From positions 1-64,000 of the IMG/VR virus record IMGVR_UViG_3300050821_007836: a DNA stretch of 64,000 nt. One strand, given 5' to 3'. Under the pieces are notes generated by a model, which had not been told where the DNA came from, searched no databases, and saw only the letters and a list, made by a program, of their open reading frames with translations. This DNA is from a virus. A program made the translations under genes and the position numbers. This document shows positions 2,271 to 61,123 of the stretch, piece by piece; the first letter of the stretch is position 1, and the number at the start of each line of letters is the position of its first letter.

Positions 2271-2522
2271 ATGACCACCACCACCGTCACCATCAAGACC
2301 CGCTCCGGGGCCAAGTTCGCTTTGGTCAAGGCCCACTACGCCAAGGGCGAGATGATCGTCCGGAACGGCCGGGGCGTGGGCTTCGAGAAGACCTTCACCG
2401 GGGCTGAGATCGTGGGCTACGCCCACTCCTCCTCCGGGGCCGTGTTGGCCCGTGTGCGCCGGTTGGGGGCCAAGCTGGTCGCCATCGAGGGTGGCAAGGT
2501 CACCGTGGAGGTGGAGGTCTGA
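2271..2522 (+). CDS. Small beta-rich hypothetical protein
   Basis: A protein of 83 residues starting 7 nt after the -10 box (leaderless). Alternating hydrophobic residues and many Val, Gly and Lys suggest a small all-beta fold (VTIKTRSGAKFALVKA...KVTVEVEV). There are no catalytic motifs. It is first in an operon that continues into a 47-residue basic protein and the HNH/helicase fusion, so it could be a partner or regulator of those. The longer TTG start at 2235 is rejected because it lies in the -35 box. Confidence 0.7.
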   Translation: MTTTTVTIKTRSGAKFALVKAHYAKGEMIVRNGRGVGFEKTFTGAEIVGYAHSSSGAVLARVRRLGAKLVAIEGGKVTVEVEV

Positions 2523-2665
2523 TGGCCAAGCCCAGACGCACCTCCGCCCGCCCTGGGGCGCGGGTCATGAACCCCCACGTCCCCCTGCGGGCCAAGACCG
2601 TCCAGTCCAAGAAGAAGGTGGCCGCTAAGCGCGCCTGCCGGGGCCGGGTCCAGGTGGAGTCATGA
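2522..2665 (+). CDS. Very basic 47-aa peptide
   Basis: ATG 2522 overlaps the TGA of the preceding gene (TGATG), and the stop overlaps ATG 2662 of the helicase (ATGA). The product is dominated by Lys, Arg and Ala (KKKVAAKRACRGR) with no hydrophobic core, so it is probably disordered and nucleic-acid binding. The double coupling supports real translation. Function unknown. Confidence 0.6.
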   Translation: MAKPRRTSARPGARVMNPHVPLRAKTVQSKKKVAAKRACRGRVQVES

Positions 2666-4557
2666 ACCTCACCGGAGCCGTCCTGCTGGGCGAGCCCAAG
2701 ATCCCTGACGTACCCCTGGATCAACGGGATCCTCACCGGAGGTTCAGCCGCGCCGAGGTGATCCGCAAGTGGGAGGCCCAAGGCAGGAAGTGCCCGCCCT
2801 GCCAGCGCGAGCTTCCCCGTGACCTCTTCGACGGCGACCACGTCTTCCCCTGGAGCAAGGGTGGCCGCACCGTCTACTCCAACCTCATGGCCCTGTGCCG
2901 TCATTGCAACGCCCGCAAGGGCAACCAGACCTACGAGACCCTGGCCAAGCAGTTCAACCTGGACCTGCTGGCAGCCGGGGACGACAGGCTCCGGCACTGG
3001 CAGGAGCAGGCTCTGGACAAGATCCTACCCCGTATCCTGAACGACCCGGTACTGATCGAGGCCTGCCCCGGTGCAGGCAAGACCCGCCTGGCCCTGGAGG
3101 TAGCCCACCATCTGATCAAGGCTGGGGAGATCTCGCGGGTGTTGGTGGTGGTTCACACCATCGGCATCGCAGACGGCTGGCTGCTAGCCGCCAGCAAGCG
3201 AGAGCCCGACAACCCCACCCTGCCCCTGGTTAGCACCAGAGGGGCGATCTGGAGGCCCACCAGGGCCATCCCAGACAACGCTGTGGGAGCGGTCCTCAGC
3301 TACCAATCCCTGGCCAGAATGACTGACACCTTCCTGGCCCACGCCACTGACATCAGTATCGAGAAAAAGGGCCGGACGACCACCAACGTTCACCACAACA
3401 CCCTGGTCATCTTCGATGAGGTCCACCACGTCGCCACCGACAAGACCTGGGGCCTGGCCGCCCAGACCGCCTTCGCCCAGGGAGCCCGGTGCATCCTGTC
3501 GATGTCAGGGACCCCGTTCCGTACCGACGCCAAGAAGATTGCCTTCGTGCCCCATACCGGAGGTGCTGCCAAACCGCTCTATCGCTACACCTATGGCCAT
3601 GCTCTTCGGGACAAACCTCCGGCCTGCCGCCGGGTGCAGTTCCTCACTACCCAGGGATCGACCACCTTCCGCAACGAGGACGGCACCGAGCACACCCTCG
3701 ACTTTAACGACCCGGATGTAAGCACACTCGGAAAGAAACGCCGTCTGCTTACCGCCCTGGATTGCATCGGGGATGGGACCATCACCGATCAGCTAATACA
3801 CAAAGCCAATGATTGGCTGATCGATATCCGCGACAATGGTGATCCTGATGCTGCCGGATTAGTGGTGTGTTACGACTGTGATCACGCCGAACGCATCGCC
3901 AAGCGCCTAGAGAAGATCACCGGTATCAAACCGATGAAGGCCTGGTCCAAGGACACCAACCCTGACGATCAAAATGCCGCCGATGTCATCCGCCAGTTCA
4001 AGGCCCACCATGCCAGCAAGCGCTGGCTGGTGGCCGTCAACATGATCTCGGAGGGCATCGACATCCGCCGTCTGCGAGCCGTGGTCTACCTGACCAATAC
4101 CAAGACCAAGCTGGCTTTCCGCCAGATCGTGGGCCGGGTGATGCGAATCGATCCCAACGACCCGACCAACATCGGCCGGATCTACATGCCCGCCGATCCC
4201 GACCTGATCTCCATGGCCGAACGGATAAGACGAGAGGTCCCTCTGTTACCACCCCTCACCGTGATCGAGGGTGAGCCTGCTAATCCCCCGGTAGTCAAGG
4301 TCCGGGGTGCTCCTAAGCCGAGAGTCCGATTCGAGCCCCTGGGCACCGTGGCTGAGCTAGGAGACGCCTATGACACCCAAGGGGGATATGGCACCGTCAA
4401 GCTCATCGAGTGCGCCGAGTTGTACATCGAAGATCAAAGACAACGTGGCAAGCTAGTAACCGTCGATGCTACGACTCTTGCTCTGGCAGCTTCACGCAAC
4501 AAAAGACTTAGAGAAAGACTCCTTGCCTACCAGGATCAATACCATGTCGCTAGCTAA
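2662..4557 (+). CDS. HNH endonuclease fused to SF2 (DEAD/DEAH-type) helicase
   Basis: The product has 631 residues in two modules. Residues about 40-88 form an HNH nuclease: zinc pairs C44-x2-C47 and C79-x2-C82 around GDH (D59, H60), with N74 and N83. From about residue 112 there is a superfamily 2 helicase core: Q-motif-like RHWQEQAL, Walker A PGAGKT (136-141), DEVH box, SGTP motif III, SEGIDI motif V and QIVGRVMR motif VI. All key residues are present, so ATP-dependent translocation coupled to DNA cleavage is expected. The fusion recalls restriction-type or defence nucleases. Its 3' end overlaps the first of two tandem paralogues by 14 nt. Target and role (inter-phage exclusion, host takeover or homing) are unknown. 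Confidence 0.85.
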   Translation: MNLTGAVLLGEPKIPDVPLDQRDPHRRFSRAEVIRKWEAQGRKCPPCQRELPRDLFDGDHVFPWSKGGRTVYSNLMALCRHCNARKGNQTYETLAKQFNLDLLAAGDDRLRHWQEQALDKILPRILNDPVLIEACPGAGKTRLALEVAHHLIKAGEISRVLVVVHTIGIADGWLLAASKREPDNPTLPLVSTRGAIWRPTRAIPDNAVGAVLSYQSLARMTDTFLAHATDISIEKKGRTTTNVHHNTLVIFDEVHHVATDKTWGLAAQTAFAQGARCILSMSGTPFRTDAKKIAFVPHTGGAAKPLYRYTYGHALRDKPPACRRVQFLTTQGSTTFRNEDGTEHTLDFNDPDVSTLGKKRRLLTALDCIGDGTITDQLIHKANDWLIDIRDNGDPDAAGLVVCYDCDHAERIAKRLEKITGIKPMKAWSKDTNPDDQNAADVIRQFKAHHASKRWLVAVNMISEGIDIRRLRAVVYLTNTKTKLAFRQIVGRVMRIDPNDPTNIGRIYMPADPDLISMAERIRREVPLLPPLTVIEGEPANPPVVKVRGAPKPRVRFEPLGTVAELGDAYDTQGGYGTVKLIECAELYIEDQRQRGKLVTVDATTLALAASRNKRLRERLLAYQDQYHVAS

Positions 4558-5335
4558 GGAGCCTACCACCATCATTCTCATCGGTGGTCTCATAACCCTA
4601 TCCGATGGATCTACCATTGACTCTAGACAACTACCGTATACATACCCGAGTATGAGAGTACATACGAACTGTTGGTCATGGTGGGAAACAGTGATTTCAA
4701 TAGTCAATCCATTACTTCAAGGCTTCGGACAAAAGGACTTCGAAACTCAGATCGGAGATCACTCCCTAGCTGAGATCAAGGATTGCCCGCTGTGGACTAT
4801 GGAGTTTAGCAATGGTAAGCCAAGAAGAAGAAATCTAGAAACCCTCCTAAGATCAAGCATCCCCACTATTAGGCCTATCATTGAAGGACCTTATAGGATA
4901 GCCTTAGCCAAGTACTCTAGATTGAACCAACTCCTACTCTCATCCAACCCAGATATAGAGTACTATCCTCAACGCTCACCCAAGTATAAGCGTGATGTGA
5001 GAATACAGATTCGCTCATATTACAATCAAGACATCAGAGGCTTTGATTCAGCGCAAATAATAATCCTTCCGCACAACCAGTTCAGCGAACATCGCTGGAA
5101 CCGCCAGAATCAACATCCTCAAACTAAAGCATCTCCTAACAGCGATCTATTCACTGAGGATGGTGACTTCAGCATCACAGGTCTTGTCAAGGGTGGCAAG
5201 TGGTGTGACCCTTGCTACCTGGAGGCAGCCCGGCGGTACCTGGAGCACAACGAGGACATCAAGTTCCCGATATGGGATCTCGCTACGAACGAAGACTTCC
5301 GCGATCTCCTGGATCCCTTCCTGGTGGCGACATGA
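4544..5335 (+). CDS. Tandem paralogue A, unknown function
   Basis: ATG 4544 was chosen because the aligned N-terminus (TIILIGG..TLSDGSTIDSRQL) matches the downstream paralogue from its own ATG. The product has 263 residues. The conserved ends flank a variable Arg- and Asn-rich middle: an N-terminal beta-rich IILIGG block with a Trp-rich segment, and a C-terminal block (WCDP.YLEAAR...NEDIKFPIWDL). No known motif is recognised. Base composition is visibly richer in A and T than the flanking genes, with many rare-type codons (AGA, ATA, CTA), a sign of foreign origin. It overlaps the helicase gene and is coupled to paralogue B, so it may act with the helicase. Confidence 0.75.
   Translation: MSLAKEPTTIILIGGLITLSDGSTIDSRQLPYTYPSMRVHTNCWSWWETVISIVNPLLQGFGQKDFETQIGDHSLAEIKDCPLWTMEFSNGKPRRRNLETLLRSSIPTIRPIIEGPYRIALAKYSRLNQLLLSSNPDIEYYPQRSPKYKRDVRIQIRSYYNQDIRGFDSAQIIILPHNQFSEHRWNRQNQHPQTKASPNSDLFTEDGDFSITGLVKGGKWCDPCYLEAARRYLEHNEDIKFPIWDLATNEDFRDLLDPFLVAT
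5261..5322 (+). repeat. Direct repeat, copy 1 (second copy 6181-6242)
   Basis: A 62-bp stretch encoding the C-terminal IKFPIWDL..NEDFRDLLDPF block recurs at 6181-6242 with only 3 mismatches, although the rest of the two paralogues has diverged strongly. This points to recent gene conversion or strong DNA-level constraint. Confidence 0.85.
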
Positions 5336-6618
5336 GCATCACCATAATCCTCATCGGCGGCCCCATGACCCTGACCGATGGATCAGTGATCGATTCCCGC
5401 CAGCTACTGAACGGCAGTCAGGGCTCAGGATCGTACATACCCAACACGAACTGCTGGCCCTGGTGGGAAATCGTGACATCCATTGTCGATCCTCTGTTGA
5501 CGGACATGACTCAACAGACAGGAGAGCATTGCATAGCTGAAGTATATGGGCCAGCCACGATCAGAAACTACGACGAGGGCAAGAGCAAGCGCTTACACCA
5601 CAGGCTACTACCGCCTGAATACGTGAGAAACGTGAGTGGAGGACCCCCTAAGGCCAAGATACTGATTCATCCTTGCTACGGTGGATATGGAGAACTCGGA
5701 TCCACCAATATAAGAGTCGGATCCAGCCTGATAACAGATCAGACACTAGTAGTCCCCCATACTCAGTTCAGCGAAGCAATAGCAAGAGACTATGCAGCCG
5801 GTCACAAGATACCAAAGCTGATGTATGTGATCAACGTACCACCTGCGTTAACCCAGGCTGCAATCAAGGATTGGCCTGATACTGAGATAAAGAGATGGGT
5901 GCAACGATACGCACAGCAACGAAAGATCTGGAAGGATACTAGTAGTAGGGACTCCAGGTTTAGAAGGACACCTGAATGGCAGGCCTGGTACGACGCCGCC
6001 AGCCCGGAAGAGCGGCATAGGACACCCAGACATCTCGTTACCCCGGCCAAGGGCTGGATGGACTACCCAGACCTTGAGAATAGTGACTTCCGCATCACCG
6101 GACTGGTGCATGAGGGTGAGTGGTGCGATCCTGATTATTTAGAAGCAGCCCGGTTATACCGGAAGTACAACGAGGATATTAAGTTTCCGATATGGGATCT
6201 CACTACGAACGAAGACTTCCGCGATCTCCTGGACCCCTTCCTCACAACAAAGACACAAATCCCCACAACTACCGCCGCTACTATAAGGAAGTTTGATAAG
6301 ATGTCCACCATGACCACTACTAAGACACAACCGAAATCAAAGTGCCCGGCCAAGAGCGAGATTCCCCCTTATCAGATGCCCTCTCACATGGGCGGCGTTA
6401 CCGTCCACCGCATGGTCACGCTGATACTCAGCGAGATCAGCACCGGGAAGCTCCAGCGGGCTGACCTCGAAGGCCGTGTCTGTGAGGGCTCTGACTGGGT
6501 GGCCGACCAGGGCCATCCCGAGGCCCGCGAAGACGCGACCCAGCACGCCATCCAGGACGCCATCAACAAGGTGACGGCCAAGCTGGGCTGGGAGCCCATC
6601 GCCCCCTGGGGCTGGTAG
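5332..6618 (+). CDS. Tandem paralogue B with C-terminal fused domain
   Basis: ATG 5332 overlaps the stop of paralogue A (ATGA). The product has 428 residues. Its first about 305 repeat the paralogue A plan (IILIGG N-block, WCDPDYLEAAR C-block), with a longer middle that includes a repeated FSEA/FSEH segment. Where A stops after DPFLVAT, B reads on through a Thr-rich linker into about 100 more residues that look like a separate small protein starting MTTTK, with an EREDATQHAIQ-like helix. Just before that point lies a -10-like copy of the leaderless promoter, so the last part may also be made alone from ATG 6310. Most likely the stop of an original gene was lost. Function unknown. Confidence 0.7.
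   Translation: MSITIILIGGPMTLTDGSVIDSRQLLNGSQGSGSYIPNTNCWPWWEIVTSIVDPLLTDMTQQTGEHCIAEVYGPATIRNYDEGKSKRLHHRLLPPEYVRNVSGGPPKAKILIHPCYGGYGELGSTNIRVGSSLITDQTLVVPHTQFSEAIARDYAAGHKIPKLMYVINVPPALTQAAIKDWPDTEIKRWVQRYAQQRKIWKDTSSRDSRFRRTPEWQAWYDAASPEERHRTPRHLVTPAKGWMDYPDLENSDFRITGLVHEGEWCDPDYLEAARLYRKYNEDIKFPIWDLTTNEDFRDLLDPFLTTKTQIPTTTAATIRKFDKMSTMTTTKTQPKSKCPAKSEIPPYQMPSHMGGVTVHRMVTLILSEISTGKLQRADLEGRVCEGSDWVADQGHPEAREDATQHAIQDAINKVTAKLGWEPIAPWGW
6181..6242 (+). repeat. Direct repeat, copy 2
   Basis: Second copy of the 62-bp repeat at 5261-5322 (59 of 62 identical); it lies immediately before the point where paralogue B departs from paralogue A. Confidence 0.85.
6282..6309 (+). promoter_or_regulatory. 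Embedded degenerate leaderless-promoter copy
   Basis: CTATAAGGAAGTTTGATAAG followed by AT matches the spacer and -10 part of the other copies (CTCTAAGAAAGTTTGCTAAGGT) and is followed by TGTCCACC and ATG 6310 in frame with paralogue B. The -35 position (GC-rich) does not match TTGCNC, so activity is uncertain. Confidence 0.45.
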
Positions 6619-8031: not shown

Positions 8032-8211
8032 ATGAAGGGCAGCGACTGCGTCACCGGCAAGCACCAGTACGCCACGCGGGAGGTAGCCAACGACGTGGCC
8101 AAGGCAGCACGGGCGCGAGGCTGGGCCACCCGGAGCTACCGGTGCGCCTGGTGCTCCTGCTGGCACATCGGTAATCCCCGCCGGGAGAACTCCAAGTCCC
8201 GCCGCAGGTGA
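8032..8211 (+). CDS. Small zinc-finger-like basic protein
   Basis: ATG 8032 gives 59 residues; a longer frame from 7948 overlaps the previous gene and is not needed. CAWCSCWH near the C-terminus plus an upstream Cys (SDCVTGKHQY) suggests a zinc knuckle, and the last 10 residues are strongly basic (RRENSKSRRR). It is the last gene of its cassette and ends 1 nt before the next promoter copy. Confidence 0.65.
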   Translation: MKGSDCVTGKHQYATREVANDVAKAARARGWATRSYRCAWCSCWHIGNPRRENSKSRRR

Positions 8212-8212
8212 C

Positions 8213-8248
8213 TTGACTTCTCTAGGAATCCTTGCTAACGTGCTTCCT
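8213..8248 (+). promoter_or_regulatory. Leaderless-type promoter, copy 4, before ncRNA
   Basis: -35 TTGACT (8213-8218), the best -35 of the set, 17-bp spacer, -10 TAACGT (8236-8241), predicted +1 near 8249. Here there is no ATG at +1 (GTACTC), unlike the protein-coding copies. Confidence 0.8.
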
Positions 8249-8661
8249 GTACTCACCGATCGAGAAAGGAAGCTATGGCGTAACCCGCACCGCAGTCAGA
8301 AGGGAGGCCCGCCCAGTGGCCAGCCTCCGCACCCGTCCCATCCCTCTTACATCCCCGGTACCGCGACTCGAAGTGGCACCGGCACTGAAGTGCCCCTCGG
8401 GGCTAAGTGTCGGGTCACCAGGGCGTGCGTAGTCGAATCCGGGGAGCCCTCGGGCGAACGGCTTGAGCCCAGGGAACTGACCGCTGACAATCAAAACCAC
8501 AGAGTACGCAGGGACGCTAACCCTGCCGGAGAGAGTGGGAGGGCCTCCTGGCCCACCAAGCTGCGATGCAACCAAGCTCCGGGTCACGTCAGGCAGGACC
8601 GCAGGACCGAGCACAACCTGGAATGAGAGCCCCCGACTTACAACCGGGGGCTCTCGCTTTT
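8249..8661 (+). ncRNA. Candidate structured non-coding RNA, about 410 nt
   Basis: Between a promoter of the leaderless family and a strong terminator there is no ATG-started ORF beyond ATG GCG TAA at 8274. A 137-codon open frame crosses the region, but its only upstream starts lie in the promoter and its third-position bases are far less GC-biased than true genes nearby. The sequence is dense in local hairpins: GGAGGC...GCCTCC, GGCAC-TGAA-GTGCC, CCCTCGGGG, GCCCTCGGGC, CAGGG...CCCTG and GGGCC-TCCT-GGCCC. It does not show a tmRNA T-arm/CCA end, RNase P signatures or group I intron cores that I can recognise. Function unknown; size and position suggest an abundant early phage RNA. Confidence 0.6.
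8625..8661 (+). terminator. Strong intrinsic terminator of the ncRNA
   Basis: Perfect 11-bp stem GAGAGCCCCCG / CGGGGGCTCTC (8625-8635, 8645-8655) with a 9-nt loop, followed by GCTTTTC. Confidence 0.9.
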
Positions 8662-8685
8662 CTTGCCATTCTTGCCAAAGGTGAC

Positions 8686-8721: not shown

Positions 8722-9780
8722 ATGGCCACCACCACCAAGTCCAAGTCCACCAAGTCCGGCCGGGTCACCCCCGCCAAGCCCCGCAAGGACCTCTACCAGT
8801 CGGTCGTTGACCGCATCTGCGCCCTGTCGCTGCAGACCAAGAAGCTGATCTGGCTGCAGGAATGGAAGGCCGCGGACGGCGGCTCCATGTTCCCCCGCTC
8901 GGTCTCCACCGGCAAGCTCTACCGGGGCATCAACCTCTGGCTGCTCCTGGGCGAGGCCCTGGAGAAGGGCTACAAGTCCACCTTCTGGGCCACCTACGAC
9001 GAGTGGGCGCGCCAGGCCGGGGCGGTCAAGGAGGGCAACTCCTGGGTCCATCCCGAGGGGCTCGACTTCGGGGTCCGCAAGGGCGAGAAATGCACCAAGG
9101 TCATCTGGTGGGGGAGCTTCGTCAAGGAGGAGAAGGACGAGGCCACCGGCAAGGTCCGCAAGGTCCGGATCCGCTTCCCCAAGGAGTTCAACGTCTGGAA
9201 CCAGGATCAGGTCCACCAGGGCACGCTCCCGAAGAAGTTCCAGCCCTCCGAGGCCGCCGAGGATGCCCCCGAGTTCGACGCCATCGAGGCGGCTCAGGCC
9301 CTGGCGGACGGCTACACCGAGGTCGAGGTCCACCACGGCGGCAACCGGGCCTACTACTCGCCCAGCCGGGACTTCATCGGCATGCCCGAGCCCACCGCCT
9401 TCACCACCCCCGAGGCCTACTACTCGACCCTGTTCCATGAGATGGGCCACTCGACGGGCCACGCCAGCCGCCTGGCCCGCAAGGACCTGATGGAGTCGCA
9501 CTCCTTCGGGGACACCAGCTACTCCAAGGAGGAGCTAACCGCGGAGATGACCGCCGCCATGCTGTGCGGGATCGCCGGGATCGAGAACTCCACCATCGAC
9601 AACTCGGCCGCCTACCTACAGGGCTGGCTGTCCAAGCTGCAGAGCGAGCCCAAGTGGCTCATGCAGGCCGCCTCCCAGGCCCAGTACGCCGCCGACTGGG
9701 TCCAGGGCATCCGCTGGACCAAGGACGGCGAGTCAGACGGCGAGGGGGCCAAGGAGCGCCCCGTGGAGGTGGCTGCTTGA
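8722..9780 (+). CDS. ardC: ArdC-like antirestriction protein (ssDNA-binding domain + zincin)
   Basis: The product has 352 residues. After a basic Lys/Ser/Thr tail, an ArdC N-terminal-type domain is marked by KLYRGINLWLLL (about residues 65-77), the hallmark block of this family. Residues about 232-280 hold a zincin metalloprotease: H239-E-M-G-H243 with a downstream Glu in EELTAE as probable third ligand. Known ArdC proteins bind single-stranded DNA and protect incoming plasmid DNA from restriction, so the likely role is shielding the phage genome early in infection. ATG 8722 lies 7 nt after the -10 and replaces a much longer upstream frame that would cross the terminator and promoter. A terminator hairpin follows. 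Confidence 0.88.
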   Translation: MATTTKSKSTKSGRVTPAKPRKDLYQSVVDRICALSLQTKKLIWLQEWKAADGGSMFPRSVSTGKLYRGINLWLLLGEALEKGYKSTFWATYDEWARQAGAVKEGNSWVHPEGLDFGVRKGEKCTKVIWWGSFVKEEKDEATGKVRKVRIRFPKEFNVWNQDQVHQGTLPKKFQPSEAAEDAPEFDAIEAAQALADGYTEVEVHHGGNRAYYSPSRDFIGMPEPTAFTTPEAYYSTLFHEMGHSTGHASRLARKDLMESHSFGDTSYSKEELTAEMTAAMLCGIAGIENSTIDNSAAYLQGWLSKLQSEPKWLMQAASQAQYAADWVQGIRWTKDGESDGEGAKERPVEVAA

Positions 9781-9840: not shown

Positions 9841-9916
9841 ACTTTCAGGAGCTTCGAAGGATCTATGCACTTGAGGGGCCTGTACCTGACAACAAGGGTA
9901 GGGGACCTACCCCGAC

Positions 9917-9952: not shown

Positions 9953-9978
9953 ATAACCACCACCACCGAGGCCATTTG

Positions 9979-11016
9979 ATGGCCAAGATCGAGTACACCC
10001 CCAAGAAGTTCTCGCCCGGCTCGCTGAAGATCATCGGCCAGGCCGAGGCCATCTGCGCCAACTACGCCGCCCAGGGCTACGACCTGACCCTGCGGCAGCT
10101 TTACTACCAGTTCGTCAGCCGGGGCCTGATCGCCAACAAGCAGACCGAGTACAAGCGCCTGGGCTCGATCATCAACGACGCCCGCCTGGCCGGGATGCTG
10201 GACTGGGACTACATCGTGGACCGGACCCGCAACCTGCGCTCCCTGGCCCACTGGGACGAGCCCACCGACCTGATCAAGGCCGCCGCCCGGCAGTTCCGCA
10301 CCGACAAGTGGGCCAGTCAGCCCACCCGCATCGAGGTCTGGATCGAGAAGGATGCCCTGGTCGGCGTGCTGGACGTGGTCTGCCCGGACCTGGACGTGCC
10401 GTACTTCTCCTGCCGGGGCTACACCAGCCAGTCCGAGATCTGGGGGGCGGCCCAGCGCCTCAACGAGTACCTGTGGAAGGGCCAAAACGTCCTCATCCTG
10501 CACCTGGGCGACCATGACCCCTCCGGCATCGACATGAGCCGCGACATCGAGGACCGGCTGCGCCTGTTCACCCGCAAGGACATGATCCGCCGCATGACCA
10601 CCATGCTCCGCAAGTGGATCCGCGACGGCGAGATCGACCCCGACGCCGACGACTACAAGACGGTGGCCCGCACCCGGCTGGACGAGTACGAGGACACCTG
10701 CGGCCACCTGGAGATCCGCCGCATCGCTCTGACCATGGATCAGGTGAACGAGTACCAGCCGCCGCCCAACCCGGCCAAGATGACCGACGCCCGCGCCGAG
10801 GGCTACGTCGGCCTCTACGGCGACGAGTCCTGGGAGCTTGACGCCCTGGACCCGGCCACCCTGTCCGCCCTGATCCGCGAGCATGTCGAGGGCGAGCGCA
10901 ACGAGGAGGCCTGGGACGAGGCCATCGCCGCCGAGGAGACCGCCTCAGAGTTGCTGCAGGGCGTCTCGGATCGCTGGGACGACGTGGTGAACCTGCTGAG
11001 CGGAGACGCCGCCTGA
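9979..11016 (+). CDS. Spo11/Topo VI-A-like protein (Topo mini-A type)
   Basis: The product has 345 residues. The winged-helix part contains TLRQLYY with Y43 in the place of the catalytic tyrosine of Topo VI-A and Spo11. The TOPRIM part has WIEKDAL (E123) and LGDHDPSG (D178, D180), the acidic Mg-binding residues, and CRGYTSQS resembles the KG.P block of Topo VI-A. So the DNA breakage-rejoining apparatus looks complete. No B (ATPase) subunit is in the window, fitting the Topo mini-A group described in mobile elements. It may cut or nick phage or host DNA or act in recombination. It is the last + strand gene, driven by the promoter at 9917, and starts at ATG 9979 overlapping a short upstream frame. 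Confidence 0.85.
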   Translation: MAKIEYTPKKFSPGSLKIIGQAEAICANYAAQGYDLTLRQLYYQFVSRGLIANKQTEYKRLGSIINDARLAGMLDWDYIVDRTRNLRSLAHWDEPTDLIKAAARQFRTDKWASQPTRIEVWIEKDALVGVLDVVCPDLDVPYFSCRGYTSQSEIWGAAQRLNEYLWKGQNVLILHLGDHDPSGIDMSRDIEDRLRLFTRKDMIRRMTTMLRKWIRDGEIDPDADDYKTVARTRLDEYEDTCGHLEIRRIALTMDQVNEYQPPPNPAKMTDARAEGYVGLYGDESWELDALDPATLSALIREHVEGERNEEAWDEAIAAEETASELLQGVSDRWDDVVNLLSGDAA

Positions 11017-42462: not shown

Positions 42463-43047
42463 CTAGAGATAGTCCCACAATCGTCCTTGTAGTCGGGCGA
42501 TGGCCAGGGCAAAAGACAGTTGATTGTGATCGATCACACTCTGCTCGTACAGGCCCCTGGCCGTGTTCTCGATATCGGCCAGGGTGTAGTAGCGGGCGTT
42601 GCCCTCAGTGCGGGGCGGGGGCACCCGGACCCCATTGATGCGGATCAAGCCGATGTCATGCTCCTCACCGTCCTTGGGGCAGACGTTGGGATCCTTGGTC
42701 CGCCACGGCTGGCGGCATTTGATGCACAGGTTCTCCTGCAGGCGGATCCAGTGCGAGGACCGCCGGAAGAAGAACTTGGCCGCCTCCGAGACGGTGAAGT
42801 GGGGCTCAACCGAGGTGTCGATGCCCTCGAAGAGCGGGGTAGCCGGATCAATGATGTAGTCCAGGATGACCAGGGTCGGGGAGACCTCGTCGGTGGGCAT
42901 CTCCACCTCGACCGAGGGGACGATGAGGCTGGGGTCGAGACGCGGGTCGGACGGGGCGATGTCGGTGGGCTCGATGGTCACCAGGGGCTCGGTGTCCCGC
43001 TCCAGGGCATCGAGGGTGGGTACGAACTCGGCGGTCATGGTGCTCAC
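42463..43047 (-). CDS. MerR-like HTH protein with a Cys-rich insert
   Basis: The product has 194 residues from GTG 43047 (GTGA overlap). An acidic N-terminal half is followed by FTVSEAAKFFFRR (about residue 84), a MerR/excisionase-type first helix pair, then CIKCRQPW...VCPKDG, and RYYTLADIE, the normal second half of a MerR-type HTH (RxYxxxDI). So the wing region is interrupted by a zinc-knuckle insertion. It could regulate phage promoters. Actinophages commonly carry MerR-like HTH proteins. Confidence 0.6.
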   Translation of the reverse strand: MSTMTAEFVPTLDALERDTEPLVTIEPTDIAPSDPRLDPSLIVPSVEVEMPTDEVSPTLVILDYIIDPATPLFEGIDTSVEPHFTVSEAAKFFFRRSSHWIRLQENLCIKCRQPWRTKDPNVCPKDGEEHDIGLIRINGVRVPPPRTEGNARYYTLADIENTARGLYEQSVIDHNQLSFALAIARLQGRLWDYL

Positions 43048-43766
43048 TTGGCTTTCCTGACATAGAGGGCTCCCCTGGTCACCGCAGGCTCGGCGGCGCG
43101 GGCGATGACCGACAGCAGAGCCGGATTGTCCTTCAGATGGGTCATGGTCTTGTGCTCATCGAAGACGCGGGTCTGGGTGGTCATGGCCAGCCAATCGGCG
43201 TGGGTGAACTCCGGCACACTGGGATCTTCGGACAGAGCCTTGAGCCTGTCCAGGTTTATATCCGGCTCACGTCTGGAGGTCTCCCAGGAGAAGACCCGGT
43301 CCGAATCCGGAACCGGAATAATGTCCTTGTCAGCCGCGAAGTAATGCCCATCCTTATCGGTCGGAGCATCGAGGGGCTTACCCCCGTTATTGGACTCTTT
43401 GGTCACGTCGTTGTGATTGAGGACGGAGGTGCGGATCCCGTCCTTGCGGGACTCGACCATGTTGCCCACCACGTCGAGGGTCTGGCGCTCCTCCATGATG
43501 GCGGCCCGCTCTTTGGGCTCCAGCGCCCGGCGCACGGTGGGGACCACCGAGCCGAAGATCTTGAGCAGCTTGGTCAGGGCCTCGATCTGCTCGTCGGAGA
43601 TCTTGGCCGCCAGCGGCAGCTTGGGTGGGGTGACAGGGGCCTCGGCCGGACGCCGCCGGACCAGGGCCTTGGCCAGGTCACTCCAGGTGATGGATCCCGA
43701 GTTGACGGCCGCGACGACCTCGTCCGGAACGACTTCGAGAGCTTGAGAGGTGGATTGATCAGTCAT
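43044..43766 (-). CDS. Hypothetical protein, possible leaderless gene
   Basis: The product has 240 residues: acidic, helical N-terminal half, a Pro-rich linker and a C-terminal mixed region ending in basic RKAK. On the - strand a -10-like TATGAT lies 8 nt before ATG 43766, so the mRNA may be leaderless or nearly so. No motif identifies it. First gene of the ThyX/MerR run. Confidence 0.6.
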   Translation of the reverse strand: MTDQSTSQALEVVPDEVVAAVNSGSITWSDLAKALVRRRPAEAPVTPPKLPLAAKISDEQIEALTKLLKIFGSVVPTVRRALEPKERAAIMEERQTLDVVGNMVESRKDGIRTSVLNHNDVTKESNNGGKPLDAPTDKDGHYFAADKDIIPVPDSDRVFSWETSRREPDINLDRLKALSEDPSVPEFTHADWLAMTTQTRVFDEHKTMTHLKDNPALLSVIARAAEPAVTRGALYVRKAK

Positions 43767-56600: not shown

Positions 56601-58898
56601 CACATCGATGAACGGCAGAGATCCATGGGTTGGGGCCATGGCGGCGAAGAAGCTGAGCCCCACCCACCAGTCCTGGGTGGGATCGAACTGCAGCCCGGTA
56701 TTGGACACGTCAATGTCCCCGGTGGTGCCCCCGGCGTTGGGGAACTGCACTCCGTTGGCAGCCGGAACAATGTTGCCGTTGATGATCGAGGCCGGGTAGA
56801 TCAGCGGGATGTCCCGAGCGGTGTGAGTGTTGGCCGGGCTGGGCGTGGAGTTCGACCAGTACAGGGTGGCGTGAACGCCCAGGTGGGTGGGATCGATCAA
56901 AAACCGGTCCACCACCTGGGCGGTCCCGGCCGGGGTCCGCACGTCCATGTAGAAGCTGACCACCGAGGAGGCCAGAGGCTGCGGCGAGCAGCGCCACTGC
57001 ACCGGCTGGGCCGTCCCCATGACCCCCAGCAGGCCTGAGGCTCCCTCCCGGTACATCGAGTACTGCACCGGGCTGCCCATGATGTCGGTGGCCGCGTCGA
57101 TGACCCCACCGTTGGGCAGGTACGGGATCGGCAGGTCGGCGGTGCCCTCGACGGAGTAGCCGATCTTCAGTCGTCGCACTGCCAGGGAGTAGGCCGCCGC
57201 CACCTGGATGGTGGCGAAGCCGCCTGACGGTCCGGGCTGGGTGGTGATCCGGTTGTAAGCCGGGGCCTTGCCGGTGCGCCTGGTCAAGACCACCCGGACC
57301 CGCTGGGTGTTGGTGGGCAGGATCCGAGTGGAGAGCGAGTACCAGTGATCCTCACCGTAATGCTGAGGGTGAATCTTGGTCAGGAGATAGTCGTCGTTGT
57401 TGACCAGCACTCCCGGCACTGAATCCACGATGTCATGCTGCAGCATCGAGTACCAAGTACCAGCCGCATCATCGTAGTACTCCACTGAGATATGAGACGG
57501 AAAATGAGCCACATCCAGCGACACCGCATTGACCGTATGCTCTGATCCGAAGCGCACTTCAAGAATGTCACGCGACGGATCGGTTTGAGCCCGATTATCG
57601 GTACACCAGAAGCTGGTCGAATCCGATGACAACTGGAAGTTGTTGTTGGTGGTGTTCTGTTGGCTGATGGTCTGCAACAGGGTGTCCATGTCCACCCCGT
57701 CGAAGGTGATGTCCGACAACGAGGCTGAGGCATTGTTGGCCAGGGAGCCCCGCCCGCTGAGCGGGTTGATGGCCATGACCCCGTCCTGGGCGTAGCGCCC
57801 GAGCAGGGCCATCCACCAGGGCAGCGGGGCGTTGGTGGGCAGGAAGTCGGTGTAGGTCCCGTCTGACCAGAAGATGCGCTGGGTGTCGGTGGAGGACAGC
57901 ACGTTCTGCATGGGGTCCTGCAGGTAGCTGATGGCCCCCACGATGTCCTTGTTGTAGAACCACTGCTCGCCCTGGTAGCTGTTGAACGGCGGCACCGCCG
58001 GGCTGATGGTGGTGCCGGGCTGGGCCTGGCCGTAAGGGACGGTGGCCCCCGTGGTGGTGACGGTGACCGCCGGACGGATCTCCCAGTAGACCGAGTCGGC
58101 CCACACCGCGATGGCCTTCACCGGCTGGTACACGTCCGGTCCCTGGGCCGCGATGGTGGCCACCGCGTCGGCGGGCTTGAGTTGTTCGATGACCTGCAGC
58201 ACGTCGTTGGCCTCGACCTGAGTGATGGGCCGGTGCGGGGCGATGACGAACTGCTTGCGCTGCAAGGAGTTGGGGACGGTGCCGGTGACCCCCTCAAGCT
58301 GGGCGTAGGTGAACTGCTGCAACCCGGCATAGGTGTAGGCCTGCAACCCGCCGTAGGTCAAGGCCAACTGATCGGCGTAAATGTAGCTCTCGTAGATGTC
58401 GCAGGTGACCGACAGGATGGCCTCGGCCACCAGCTTCATGCCCACCGGGGACGGCCCGTACTCCAGGGCTCGGCCGAACTGGAACAGCCGGTTGCGATAG
58501 CTGGCATCGGCGGTGGCCGCGCTGGTCCAATCGTCGGGCGAGGCGGTGTCGCTGTAGGGGTCCATGGACAGGGCCTCGGCCGGAGCACGCTGCATGCCGA
58601 AGAGCGCCCCGTAGAAGCTGTCCAGGTCATAAAAGTACGACGAGGACATGATCTGGCCCAGGCGAGAGAGCACCAGCCGCTTGCGTAGTTGCCCGGCTCC
58701 GGCGTCACCCAGGAGCACCCGCAGGAAGCGGACCAGATTGGAGTGCGGGGTGAGGGTGTAGATCTCGCTCGGAAAGTGCCGGAAGCGCTGGTCGGTCTGG
58801 ACCGGCACCAGGAGGCCCTGGGTGACCGTGTCCAGGCTGGCAGGCCCTGGAGTGCCCGGAACTAGCTGCAGAGCCCCAGGGGGCGTCAGATCGCTCAT
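53673..58898 (-). CDS. Large tail protein with carbohydrate-binding-like domain
   Basis: The product has 1741 residues. The N-terminal region (about 1-250) has the helical, Tyr/Gln-rich look of tail protein I / baseplate-attached proteins. Later parts are beta-rich modules with many short strands, and a segment beginning GFEDGTIGDW and ending QSVGDTFDWDAFS resembles CBM4/9-type sugar-binding domains. The rest has repeated strand-rich domains of the adhesin type. It probably forms the host-binding tail fibre or baseplate arm recognising cell-wall glycan. It overlaps the baseplate J gene at its start. Confidence 0.7.
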   Translation of the reverse strand: MSDLTPPGALQLVPGTPGPASLDTVTQGLLVPVQTDQRFRHFPSEIYTLTPHSNLVRFLRVLLGDAGAGQLRKRLVLSRLGQIMSSSYFYDLDSFYGALFGMQRAPAEALSMDPYSDTASPDDWTSAATADASYRNRLFQFGRALEYGPSPVGMKLVAEAILSVTCDIYESYIYADQLALTYGGLQAYTYAGLQQFTYAQLEGVTGTVPNSLQRKQFVIAPHRPITQVEANDVLQVIEQLKPADAVATIAAQGPDVYQPVKAIAVWADSVYWEIRPAVTVTTTGATVPYGQAQPGTTISPAVPPFNSYQGEQWFYNKDIVGAISYLQDPMQNVLSSTDTQRIFWSDGTYTDFLPTNAPLPWWMALLGRYAQDGVMAINPLSGRGSLANNASASLSDITFDGVDMDTLLQTISQQNTTNNNFQLSSDSTSFWCTDNRAQTDPSRDILEVRFGSEHTVNAVSLDVAHFPSHISVEYYDDAAGTWYSMLQHDIVDSVPGVLVNNDDYLLTKIHPQHYGEDHWYSLSTRILPTNTQRVRVVLTRRTGKAPAYNRITTQPGPSGGFATIQVAAAYSLAVRRLKIGYSVEGTADLPIPYLPNGGVIDAATDIMGSPVQYSMYREGASGLLGVMGTAQPVQWRCSPQPLASSVVSFYMDVRTPAGTAQVVDRFLIDPTHLGVHATLYWSNSTPSPANTHTARDIPLIYPASIINGNIVPAANGVQFPNAGGTTGDIDVSNTGLQFDPTQDWWVGLSFFAAMAPTHGSLPFIDVRGVKIGYAAGAFYINPTTLLSTVDAGFEDGTIGDWGGAYACTLSNTTAHAVTGTHSLRATTTAVGEPYFTNNVFLPVTPGVSYAATGWVTGSNAADYAILGYAWYDRNHTYMSQVSGPAVSITPSIWTQVNVTATAPTGAAFVQLFPNMLNQSVGDTFDWDAFSIIGSSLRTVVPIPLNSLIYLVVGFTHATNTWSFSYQINAAGDPELNVPVTVTGLQPAGMIVTSYPNVRVGGYNDNSIPATSGMLLQNLVLKGETLTSATIASYLTDPESYSVKGSFNSQDQGFTRNAYLRFDDTFISEANPSGMVGGAPTFYPDLFWTPIAGDYLLTTGYISLPPTLAKFWKIELTNLAPEPYEGFLPVQSTVKTFPATVMNASMPGTATPGYEGPMDVGLPTLIALGQGENTYPYTGTIGTPTPTGASNLLMSPTQVMISKDPGTAQQIGAASWLYNFTNFHQGMQAPRFATPGFHNYQTSDVPFTSKLAFFCGFKTIQAVRTSPLAQNDAPVYYEAFLDEVFIESNTFNQNPGDLATPTNPADSGLLPCTAQSVSFISTHDVTSLQFATSQSDAVQVVYDDDMRNTALASTTWNDTGTWHVVGDVAPIQVTYLAGSNAIVFSRQSNPPPPAQNVTGAVHGMMNPPIEPPLKTENLAQSHAATANIPFGGICSAPLLLSARGRAWVAVRYTPITPLTNPLWVQLVDVATGRLVWQAETSGSAGAVTEFTAPYDIGSVPGVNVADSLYVQLVQQGKSNDAISIDTLSVFDESIVWEFSVDGGTTFWQAIDSRNNPNGVLRFPVASQQLVWRTTCYRESMHISSLQIRPIYEGQLNVDTQPFMRGPNLSTFDTTPDVYNDPMFTQWNNPVPRWWYLAFKQYPNLFPDGVPIINVFSNFYNRTTTDDLSTTLVDTATRIVTAEPSAFEFFGPVTDAGTWVSGLFHRPAIEDVSGTFGDSASFFVVTPAEYDNIISPTITKLIT

Positions 58899-61123
58899 CA
58901 GGCCCCCGTCATGTAAGTGTTGAAGGCCCTCACGTAGAGGTTGGCGTTGTTGAAGACCGGCACCGTGTCATCGGGGAAGTACACGTCGGTAGCCCGGCCC
59001 CCGTAGGAGAAGGTCTGGATCAGCCCAGCCGCCGAGTTAATCTGCTGGATGGCCCAGTTGGTCGAGCCCGCCGCGGTGGCGTCGGCTTGGGTGGCGAAGC
59101 GCACCGCCAGGATCCCGGCCACCTGGCCTACCGCGGTGAGAAGCTCAGAGGTGGACAAGATGCCGTCGAAGCCCACCCCGGAGAAGGCCGTCTGCATGGC
59201 GCTCTGGACATCCCCGAGCACCGAGGAGGCGGTGTAGCCCGAGGCCAGGACCACCACGAAGGTGGTGTTGAGGAACATCTGCTTGGACTGGTGGACCCAC
59301 ACGTCGGTGGTCACCAGCCGCCAACGCTGGATGGCGGTCTCGATCTCGCGGGGCACGGCGTTGTAGCTGTAAGTGACCGGTAGCTGAGCGTTAGCCGGGG
59401 GCAGGGGATTGCCGCCGTTGGCCACCGAGCGCCACTCGATGCCCGAGTTGGAGTGTGGACTGCCGCCGATCGAGGTGATGTTGTTGACCAGGAAGTAGTC
59501 GATCCCGTAGTAGTAGGTGATGGCTCCCACGTCGGTGCCGGTCCCGGCGTCAGCGGCGTAGATGACCGAGCCCACCGTGTTGGTCGAGCCCGACACCGCC
59601 ACCCCACCCAGGGCCGAGACGGTGATGGTGGACGGCAGCCCCACCACGGGCTGGAAGGTCAGGGGCAGGAAGTAGTTGCCGGGCGTGGGCCGGGTCAGGT
59701 CCGGATGGGCGTAGCTGGTGTAGTTGAGCGGATCCCCGGCGTTGGAGTTGAACACCTGGCCGGTGGACCAGATGACGGTGTCGGTGGCGCTCTGGTCGTC
59801 GGCCCCCTGGACGTAGATGTCGATCTTGTTGGTGACCCCGTTGACCGGATCGTTGCGGCTGGCCATCGGCACGTACTGGAACTGGAAGTCGTAGACCCCG
59901 TCCGGGCAGTTGACGGCGTCGATGGAGGTGATGGTGGGCGAGTACCCGGCCGTGTTGGTGGTGGGGTAGGCCTGGGTACCGGTGGCCCCGGTGGTGTCGG
60001 TCCAGGTGGTGATCGAGGCAGCCACGATGGCCAGGAGGGTCTCGGTGTTGGTGGTGTTCGATCCGTAGACATAGATCCACTGGGCCTGGATGGGCACCGG
60101 GGTGGGGAAGGTCAACCGGACGCTGGAAGCGGCCGTGGTGGTGGCCGCGGCAGCTACTTCGGCCCCGGCCGGGGTGGTGCCAGCCGCGGTGGCATAAGCA
60201 ATGCGATAGAAACGGGTCCGACCGCTGGGAATGGTCCCGCCTGTGGTCAGAGTGGCCGCGGTCAAGGCGGTCTGAGGGGCCGTCCCCGGAGCCGCTAATG
60301 CATAGGTGTTCGCATTGAAGGTGTAATGGATGTTGGGATTGAGGAGGCTCTGGTCCGCGATACTCGGTCCAAAGACGTAGTTCATGGGGTAGATGTACTT
60401 GGCCGCCTGAATGGTGGACTGACCGGTGCCACCCGTGATCTGAATCTGCTCCAGATGGGTCTTGGCCGCCCCGATGACATTGGCCATAACCGTGGCCGGG
60501 TTCTCCTGGGCTGTGCCCAGGAACATCTGCTCGGTCCCCGCCATGTTGCGAAAGACGGTGTTCTCGAAGCGGTTCCGCAAAGCATCGTCGGACTCGGCGT
60601 CTGCTCCTCCGGTGGTGGCCGTGGTGTTGGCCAGGGTGGAGAATCCTGACAACGGGGTGGAGAACCCGGCGATGGAGTTGGGCGGCACGTTGCCGTTCGA
60701 GCCGCCCACCTGGGCAATGATGGGGATGTCGATGGAGATGGCCCCGATGGGCATGACCCCGGTGATGAGGGTGACGAAGGTGACGGGCGGACTGTCGTAG
60801 GTGGACACCGCCGTCCCGGCCGGTACCGAGGTGGCCTGGGTGGCCGCGGCAGGAGCGGCGAAGGTGACCACTCCCGTGGCCCGGCGCGCCGTCAGGCGGG
60901 TCATGCCGAACAGGTTGACGAAGTCGTCCAGCGACGAGCCTGACAGGCTGGTGATGTCGTAGTTGTAACCGAGGAAGAACTGGTCCACGTAGGCCTCGGC
61001 CACCACCTCGGCCACGGCGTCGAGGATCTTGCGGGTGGGCGTGCCGATGGAGGTGTCCAGGTCGGGGATGGTCACTCCCAGGGCCGAGACCATCTGGCTG
61101 GCGATTTCTGGCTGACTCGGCAT
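58898..61123 (-). CDS. Baseplate J-like protein
   Basis: The product has 741 residues. The N-terminal 250 show the gpJ pattern: TPTRKILDAVAEVVAEAYVDQF, LDDFVNLFGMTRLTARRATG, then the VTFVTLITG...VPPNSIAGFS strand block and DDALRNRFENTVFRNMAGTE. The C-terminal domains are strand-rich. Baseplate J proteins form the wedge of contractile tails, so a myovirus-like particle is supported. The start overlaps the gp25-like gene stop and the stop overlaps the tail protein start (ATGA). Confidence 0.85.
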   Translation of the reverse strand: MPSQPEIASQMVSALGVTIPDLDTSIGTPTRKILDAVAEVVAEAYVDQFFLGYNYDITSLSGSSLDDFVNLFGMTRLTARRATGVVTFAAPAAATQATSVPAGTAVSTYDSPPVTFVTLITGVMPIGAISIDIPIIAQVGGSNGNVPPNSIAGFSTPLSGFSTLANTTATTGGADAESDDALRNRFENTVFRNMAGTEQMFLGTAQENPATVMANVIGAAKTHLEQIQITGGTGQSTIQAAKYIYPMNYVFGPSIADQSLLNPNIHYTFNANTYALAAPGTAPQTALTAATLTTGGTIPSGRTRFYRIAYATAAGTTPAGAEVAAAATTTAASSVRLTFPTPVPIQAQWIYVYGSNTTNTETLLAIVAASITTWTDTTGATGTQAYPTTNTAGYSPTITSIDAVNCPDGVYDFQFQYVPMASRNDPVNGVTNKIDIYVQGADDQSATDTVIWSTGQVFNSNAGDPLNYTSYAHPDLTRPTPGNYFLPLTFQPVVGLPSTITVSALGGVAVSGSTNTVGSVIYAADAGTGTDVGAITYYYGIDYFLVNNITSIGGSPHSNSGIEWRSVANGGNPLPPANAQLPVTYSYNAVPREIETAIQRWRLVTTDVWVHQSKQMFLNTTFVVVLASGYTASSVLGDVQSAMQTAFSGVGFDGILSTSELLTAVGQVAGILAVRFATQADATAAGSTNWAIQQINSAAGLIQTFSYGGRATDVYFPDDTVPVFNNANLYVRAFNTYMTGA

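Follow-up and report, generated by a model that had tools for sequence, protein, structure and literature searches.

A stretch of viral DNA of 64,000 nucleotides (the window), part of the 68,088-base virus record IMGVR_UViG_3300050821_007836 of IMG/VR, carries at positions 8213-8661 of its plus strand an element that is noncoding, conserved and arranged in a fixed layout. Judged from sequence comparison, this element is likely a gene for a noncoding structured RNA. It combines the generic features of an RNA gene, namely its own promoter and terminator, lack of coding capacity and conservation, but in two related viruses the promoter is shared with a small open reading frame (ORF). The first-pass annotation had described a dedicated noncoding RNA gene. 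This is supported by the conservation in two relatives, by the fixed order of promoter, core and terminator and by the finding that there is neither a common reading frame nor a match in Rfam, and it is qualified by the ORF that shares the promoter in the relatives. It had also taken the whole 410 nt for one structured RNA, and this could be kept for an arm and a core (~8352-8599), with a fold that is partly supported, and not for the remainder; the abundance that it ascribed to the RNA is a prediction.

The promoter (8213-8241, plus strand) consists of TTGACT (8213-8218), a 17-nt spacer and TAACGT (8236-8241), and copies of it are also present in both relatives. In the window the pattern TGACTTG-N20-24-TAACGT was found at 8209 and 8682, two occurrences compared with 0.01 expected, and a longer form of the motif, written as a regular expression, was found six times (988, 2232, 6627, 8210, 8683 and 9914), always on the plus strand, which confirms the promoter copy at 8213-8241 as real. 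The motif spans ~32 nt (GACTTG..CTCTAAG..TGCTAANGT), mostly has a start codon directly 3' of it, and is confined to one strand, both across the window and within each of the three stretches compared for layout. For four of the five other copies an ATG follows directly 3'. At the copy at 9914 this place is taken by ATA and the listed ORF begins 23 nt later, with TTG at 9976, so that the earlier statement that the other five plus-strand copies each lead to a coding start holds for the four and only loosely for this one. In the 8210 copy, TGTAC stands in place of the CATG of the four ATG-led copies, so that a start codon is missing from its expected position.

At the other end, an intrinsic terminator (8625-8661, plus strand) is formed by a perfect stem of 11 out of 11 pairs (8625-8635/8645-8655) with a 9-nt loop, followed by the T-rich tail GCTTTTCTT, in agreement with the 11-bp terminator with a T-run that had been annotated. 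It was not listed by the terminator scan because its loop of 9 nt exceeds the 3-8 nt that the scan allows. One of its pairs has changed from G-C to A-U in L004, and the outer U-G pair is G-C in both relatives (L003 and L004). From a leaderless-type phage promoter at this position, transcription would start near 8249 and end at ~8661 at the intrinsic terminator. The positions of promoter and terminator are thus consistent with the proposed transcript of ~410 nt from 8249, a predicted start site.

Homologues of the element were identified via the neighbouring gene. Downstream of the RNA an ArdC-like protein (8722-9780, plus strand) with ArdcN and MPTase-PolyVal domains is encoded, which has its own promoter copy at 8683. 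A search with this protein resulted in 26 loci. When these were searched with the element by blastn, the window's own virus was matched and so were L003 and L004, both with 83-84% identity over 239 nt including the terminator; the other matches were promoter copies, or 15 nt in L005. The polymerases of L003 and L004 are 79 and 85% identical to that of the window, the latter being a partial sequence of 570 aa. The contig 3300021478_000015 (L002, L029, L052, G047) belongs to the window's own virus and was counted once. Three independent viruses were thus found, with the RNA present in 3/3, once in every record carrying it, and with ArdC downstream of it on the same strand in all three.

Wider searches returned the same three viruses. 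They were the only ones found when the viral collection was scanned with two exact core patterns, and a scan with the promoter pattern returned only five contigs, all within the same three samples. A gapped core pattern selected 69 stretches of genome contigs, none of which was convincing by model R1 (one reached 15.8 bits, E 0.42), and 8 stretches of viral contigs, comprising the three known viruses and five without an R1 match. Against 50 sources, model R1 gave five strong matches, every one of them belonging to the three viruses, and four weak ones (10.9-14.0 bits). Among 39 whole records drawn from the 49 loci L002-L050, two matched at E ≤ 1, and these are the two relatives. The ten loci outside the 39 (L002, L014-L017, L022, L023, L026, L027 and L029) were, except for L002, covered by R1 as stretches; the record of L002 was among eight further records, which gave one true match, the window's own virus, and two weak ones (9.2 and 5.6 bits). 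Matches in the phages Rhodococcus E3, Mycobacterium Alice and Streptomyces Hydra were weak (10.6-14.7 bits, best E 0.2), and R1 matched 0/1 and 0/396 Actinomycetota genomes in runs without a positive control. In 50,697 phage records blastn with the element found no match at 1e-5; the matches seen were of 22 nt, with E 9, in four Mycobacterium phages. Searches with the polymerase revealed no fourth virus, and the only extra contig, 3300036832_001461, encodes the other part of the polymerase and shares its sample of origin with the contig of L004; based on the sample and the complementary polymerase halves it is probably a further piece of a relative. The same probably applies to contig 3300036791_001038, based on sample and size, and neither contig was counted.

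Conservation is concentrated in the 3' half of the element, where a noncoding core (8429-8599, plus strand; alignment columns 85-258) is ~86% identical between the window and the relatives: 147 of 170 positions are the same in the window and L003 (4 gapped columns) and 146 of 169 in the window and L004 (5 gapped columns). Four-fold degenerate sites of the polymerase gene are 67% identical to L003 (499 sites) and 65% to L004 (241 sites), and the excess of the core over these sites is significant (Fisher P 4e-7 and 1e-6, respectively). Compared with the four-fold sites of the ArdC gene, which are 76% identical to L003 (102 sites) and 72% to L004 (101 sites), the excess is modest (P 0.05 and 0.006). 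Between L003 and L004, 159 of 171 core positions are identical, compared with 74% of 261 four-fold sites in the polymerase and 77% of 136 in ArdC. Identity drops to ~40% in the arm region, and in the stretch after the core, which includes the terminator, it is 59-62%, with the alignment out of register there. That the core is nearly unchanged in two relatives suggests that it probably has a job during infection.

As candidates for a protein encoded by this stretch, the window has a frame of 137 codons open on the plus strand (8213-8626) and one of 113 codons on the minus strand. However, when both strands of the three homologues were compared, none of the frames was open throughout, and the core contains frame-shifting indels of 1-2 nt between them. 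Since the homologous frames are stopped or shifted in the relatives, a protein-coding gene was rejected as a candidate and is considered highly improbable, and the earlier statement that there is no credible ORF stands, with the addition that frames are open in the window and none of them is common to the three homologues.

The order of the parts is the same in the three viruses. The core motif lies 293, 309 and 305 nt past the start of the promoter copy in the window, L003 and L004, respectively, and the next promoter copy follows at +180, +168 and +168 nt from it. The part between promoter and arm differs. In the window it is a 5' leader (8249-8349, plus strand, from the predicted start) that is not conserved and has a folding z of +0.78 (8248-8349). 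In L003 and L004 its place is taken by a basic leaderless ORF of 45-46 aa, which lies directly after the promoter and ends shortly before the arm. Because this ORF comes first after the promoter, transcripts of the relatives would be longer and would include the RNA as their 3' portion. A relative of the small basic ORF is present in the window at 2522-2665 (plus strand, 47 aa; 90 nt match at 80%), ~6 kb from the RNA, and model R1 found no second core copy near it. When the leader and arm of the window (8248-8430) were compared with the stretches of the relatives, the only match was a 37-nt segment of the opposite strand of L141 (78%, E 0.007).

These findings bear on the possibility that an mRNA for a small protein ends in the element as a structured 3' region required for its stability or control, and that the ORF was lost in the window. 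In favor of this, L003 and L004 have the ORF of 45-46 aa between promoter and arm. In the window, however, the RNA lacks the ORF, a relative of which sits ~6 kb away, and yet the core is 86% identical, so that this explanation is regarded as quite unlikely. With the core present without the ORF in the window and the ORF located elsewhere, RNA core and ORF are separable, and it is core and terminator that stay together. What precedes the nearly constant RNA core is a small coding ORF in the relatives and a noncoding leader in the window.

Between the relatives, a further intergenic stretch (L004:5721-5925 and L003:5764-5964) is 86% identical over 205 nt. It has a terminator-like hairpin, read by eye, at its start and the ArdC promoter at its end, and was not found in the window. 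ARAGORN and Rfam searches of it gave no match. This stretch may be another noncoding RNA.

The fold of the RNA was examined by shuffling and by comparison of the three sequences. The whole element of 417 nt folds with z = -2.77 (100 shuffles), while the core (8444-8598) has a z of only -0.18, and -0.07 and -0.26 in the relatives; arm and core together give -0.89, -0.76 and -0.13. The 5' arm reaches -2.59 in the window and -2.32 in L003, values that in either case were matched by 3 of 150 shuffles; these shuffles cover the window and L003, the arm of L004 being nearly identical to that of L003. Since the core is near zero and the arm alone stands out, the value of the whole element stems from the arm and presumably the terminator. 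The many local hairpins pointed out in the first-pass annotation are therefore present, but in the core they are no more than expected by chance.

The 5' arm (P1/P2; 8352-8445, plus strand) is closed by an outer helix (8352-8358/8439-8445), which reads UCCCCGG/CCGGGGA in the window and CGCAUGG/CCAUGCG in L003. The arm of the relatives differs in sequence and also folds. Taken by itself the outer helix does not exceed chance, since helices of this length or longer occurred in 15 and 7% of the shuffles. The arm is followed by hairpin P3 (8447-8474, plus strand; loop GAACGGCUUGA), which was read by eye and has a stem of 6 to 8 pairs depending on the virus, with different bases and small indels in the three viruses. 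P4 (8477-8592, plus strand), a weak long-range helix that was also read by eye, pairs CUGAC (8477-8481) with GUCAG (8588-8592); four of its pairs are invariant and the rest is variable and imperfect, with a C.A in L003, and eight pairs are possible in L004 compared with about five in the window. Within P4 lie hairpin P5 (8508-8526, plus strand; GCAGGG/CCCUGC), which has an invariant stem and changes in the loop only, P6 (8527-8581, plus strand; CGGAG 8527-8531 with CUCCG 8577-8581), which is also invariant, and, enclosed by P6, hairpin P7 (8536-8558, plus strand), whose closing pair is C-G in the window and U-A in both relatives. As P5 and P6 are invariant in the three viruses, they say nothing for or against the fold.

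Of the 30 variable core columns, two fall in the 38 stem columns of P5-P7 (P = 0.008), and both belong to the one compensatory pair of P7; when P3 and the tail are excluded, the proportion is 2 of 14 (P = 0.07). In the three independent sequences, compensatory changes were few, being confined to P3 (by eye), one pair of P7 and one or two pairs of the terminator. RNAalifold reported 13 two-sided pairs with a covariation term of 0.02 kcal/mol, which were not relied on because its alignment is shifted in register at the terminator and wrong for the 5' strand of the arm; its compensatory pairs in the terminator were mostly dropped for the shifted register. An AGUCC/GGACU pairing proposed by RNAalifold was rejected as well, because it cannot form in the window intact and is in competition with the outer helix of the arm, and so was a complement of 8303-8315 with 8536-8548 (12/13), which occurs in the window only and is not used by the predicted fold. 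Taken together, the fold is plausible and partly supported.

To known RNA families no assignment could be made. With Rfam 15 at the curated cut-offs, neither the window nor 10 loci taken from the three viruses gave a match, and all matches in permissive scans of the three elements were far below the cut-offs. The only family matching all three elements was GNAS-AS1_4, on the minus strand with 17.5-18.7 bits compared with a cut-off of 50 and with a model that has no base pairs, and the only family matching both relatives alone was eiav_FSE (11 bits, cut-off 40); both were rejected. ARAGORN found no tRNA or tmRNA genes in the window or in 12 loci, and no Rfam RNase P model matched the three elements even at E up to 10. 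Weak matches to one member each were seen for the Actinomyces-1 RNA (RF02928; 15.0 bits, E 6.7, cut-off 39.1) and the plasmid ctRNAs RF00236 (17.4 bits, E 0.89, cut-off 45) and RF00489 (20.0 bits, E 0.069, cut-off 50); both ctRNA matches coincide with the terminator hairpin, in one case on the opposite strand. A search of open-licence literature, covering titles and the beginnings of abstracts, found no description of this RNA.

Phage noncoding RNAs as a kind are known. According to the consulted excerpt of PMC10986025, highly transcribed noncoding RNAs of unknown function occur in the actinophages WC1, D29, Kampy, L5, StarStuff, RedRock and SWU1, and a far-right region is toxic to M. smegmatis and E. 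coli. The element resembles these RNAs in being noncoding, with expression that is predicted here; they are located, as far as that excerpt goes, at genome ends, in WC1 also mid-genome, and the present core has no significant match in the phage collection. The part of the Kampy paper at hand (PMC4626039) contained nothing bearing on such an RNA. GOLLD and ROOL are described in the excerpt of PMC12286853 as ornate structured RNAs of unknown function that are linked to phages and prophages; many of the GOLLD RNAs are longer than 800 nt and located close to tRNA islands, whereas here neither a tRNA nor an Rfam match was found. By sequence, the element would represent a new family within the known kind of phage noncoding RNAs.

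Another parallel comes from the cluster A mycobacteriophages Alma and LadyBird, in which, as stated in the available portion of PMC7157519, a noncoding RNA region serves prophage replication or stability. That region is similar in size, as judged from deletions of ~500 and ~400 bp, adjoins parABS, and is needed for a stable prophage and not for lytic growth; sequence similarity between the cluster A origin RNA and the window core was not found in the 50,697 phage records. This parallel speaks for the possibility that the core functions at the DNA level or in priming replication, being part of a phage origin at which transcription from the promoter supplies the primer. The cumulative GC skew of the window is lowest at ~12 kb, 3-4 kb from the element, there is one match per record, and three aligned sequences cannot separate conserved RNA from conserved DNA. 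The skew covers the window only, however, and its minimum coincides with a change in the direction of the genes near 11 kb, which explains it equally well. No ParA, ParB or RepA family was found among the 22 proteins scanned, a terminator right after the core ill suits a long primer, and the phage collection gave no significant match. Overall, an origin or primer appears rather unlikely.

Most small trans-acting bacterial RNAs act by antisense pairing, and a regulator acting by antisense pairing on mRNAs of the phage or its host would follow this usual mode. The longest complement in the window, however, is a GC-rich stretch of 13 nt (8542-8554) inside P7, and this length was reached by 77 of 100 Markov-sampled controls. 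Complements to one actinobacterial 16S and one 23S locus, which served as a proxy for the host, were 9-11 nt long and reached by 21-98% of 300 controls. Judged from long complements within the window and to these two loci, an antisense role is considered unlikely.

An action in trans via a protein or ribonucleoprotein is favored because the layout is constant, unpaired stretches are conserved and no antisense target stood out. The functional part would be the arm and core (~8352-8599), composed of the variable arm, P3 and a unit closed by P4 that contains P5, P6 and P7. In the predicted fold, the stretches GAACGRCUUGA, CAAAACCACMGAGUAC, GCUGCGAUGCRACCAAG and AGGCAGGA are conserved and unpaired. 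Instead of pairing over long antisense stretches, the folded RNA may act in trans during infection by binding a host or phage protein or ribonucleoprotein, for which it might serve as a scaffold or decoy. Transcription, its timing, the action in trans and the partner are inferred here; as a mechanism, protein binding in trans is a tentative proposal, rated a little below even odds. The best explanation as a whole, a phage RNA gene of which arm and core act in trans via a protein or ribonucleoprotein, is evenly poised. A far-reaching interpretation, and an unlikely one, would be a new class of phage RNAs that bind and reprogram the ribosome, RNA polymerase or a similarly central machine of the host, or that partner with a phage protein, with transcription from the leaderless-type promoter that the neighboring genes also use. 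The candidate offers homologues in three diverged viruses, defined ends and a mapped core, which makes it amenable to deletion and pull-down experiments once a host is found.

With regard to the virus itself, the element is located at 43013-43167 in a 156,983-base contig of the window's virus. Window positions 58000-60000 correspond to 148455-150455 of this contig, on the same strand. Since the window spans the ends of the contig, the genome is probably closed. The virus encodes a DnaE-like polymerase, ribonucleotide reductase, RecA and a DnaB-like helicase. The closest named polymerases, those of Rhodococcus phage E3, Mycobacterium phages and Streptomyces phages, are 28-30% identical, and a tail protein has matches in Mycobacterium, Gordonia and Rhodococcus phages over ~30% of its length. 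An actinobacterial host of this large virus is likely.

Some further observations were made in the surroundings of the element. A single protein encoded at 2662-4557 combines HNH endonuclease, ResIII and helicase C-terminal domains. The stretch at 4466-6618 is AT-richer (52% GC at 4001-6000) and contains two ORFs in overlapping regions with a similar C-terminal motif, NEDIKFPIWDL.TNEDFRDLLDPF, and is perhaps a duplicated or acquired gene. At 9979-11016, a protein of 345 aa without a Pfam match is encoded, relatives of which were identified in 23 viral loci, the window's own virus among these.
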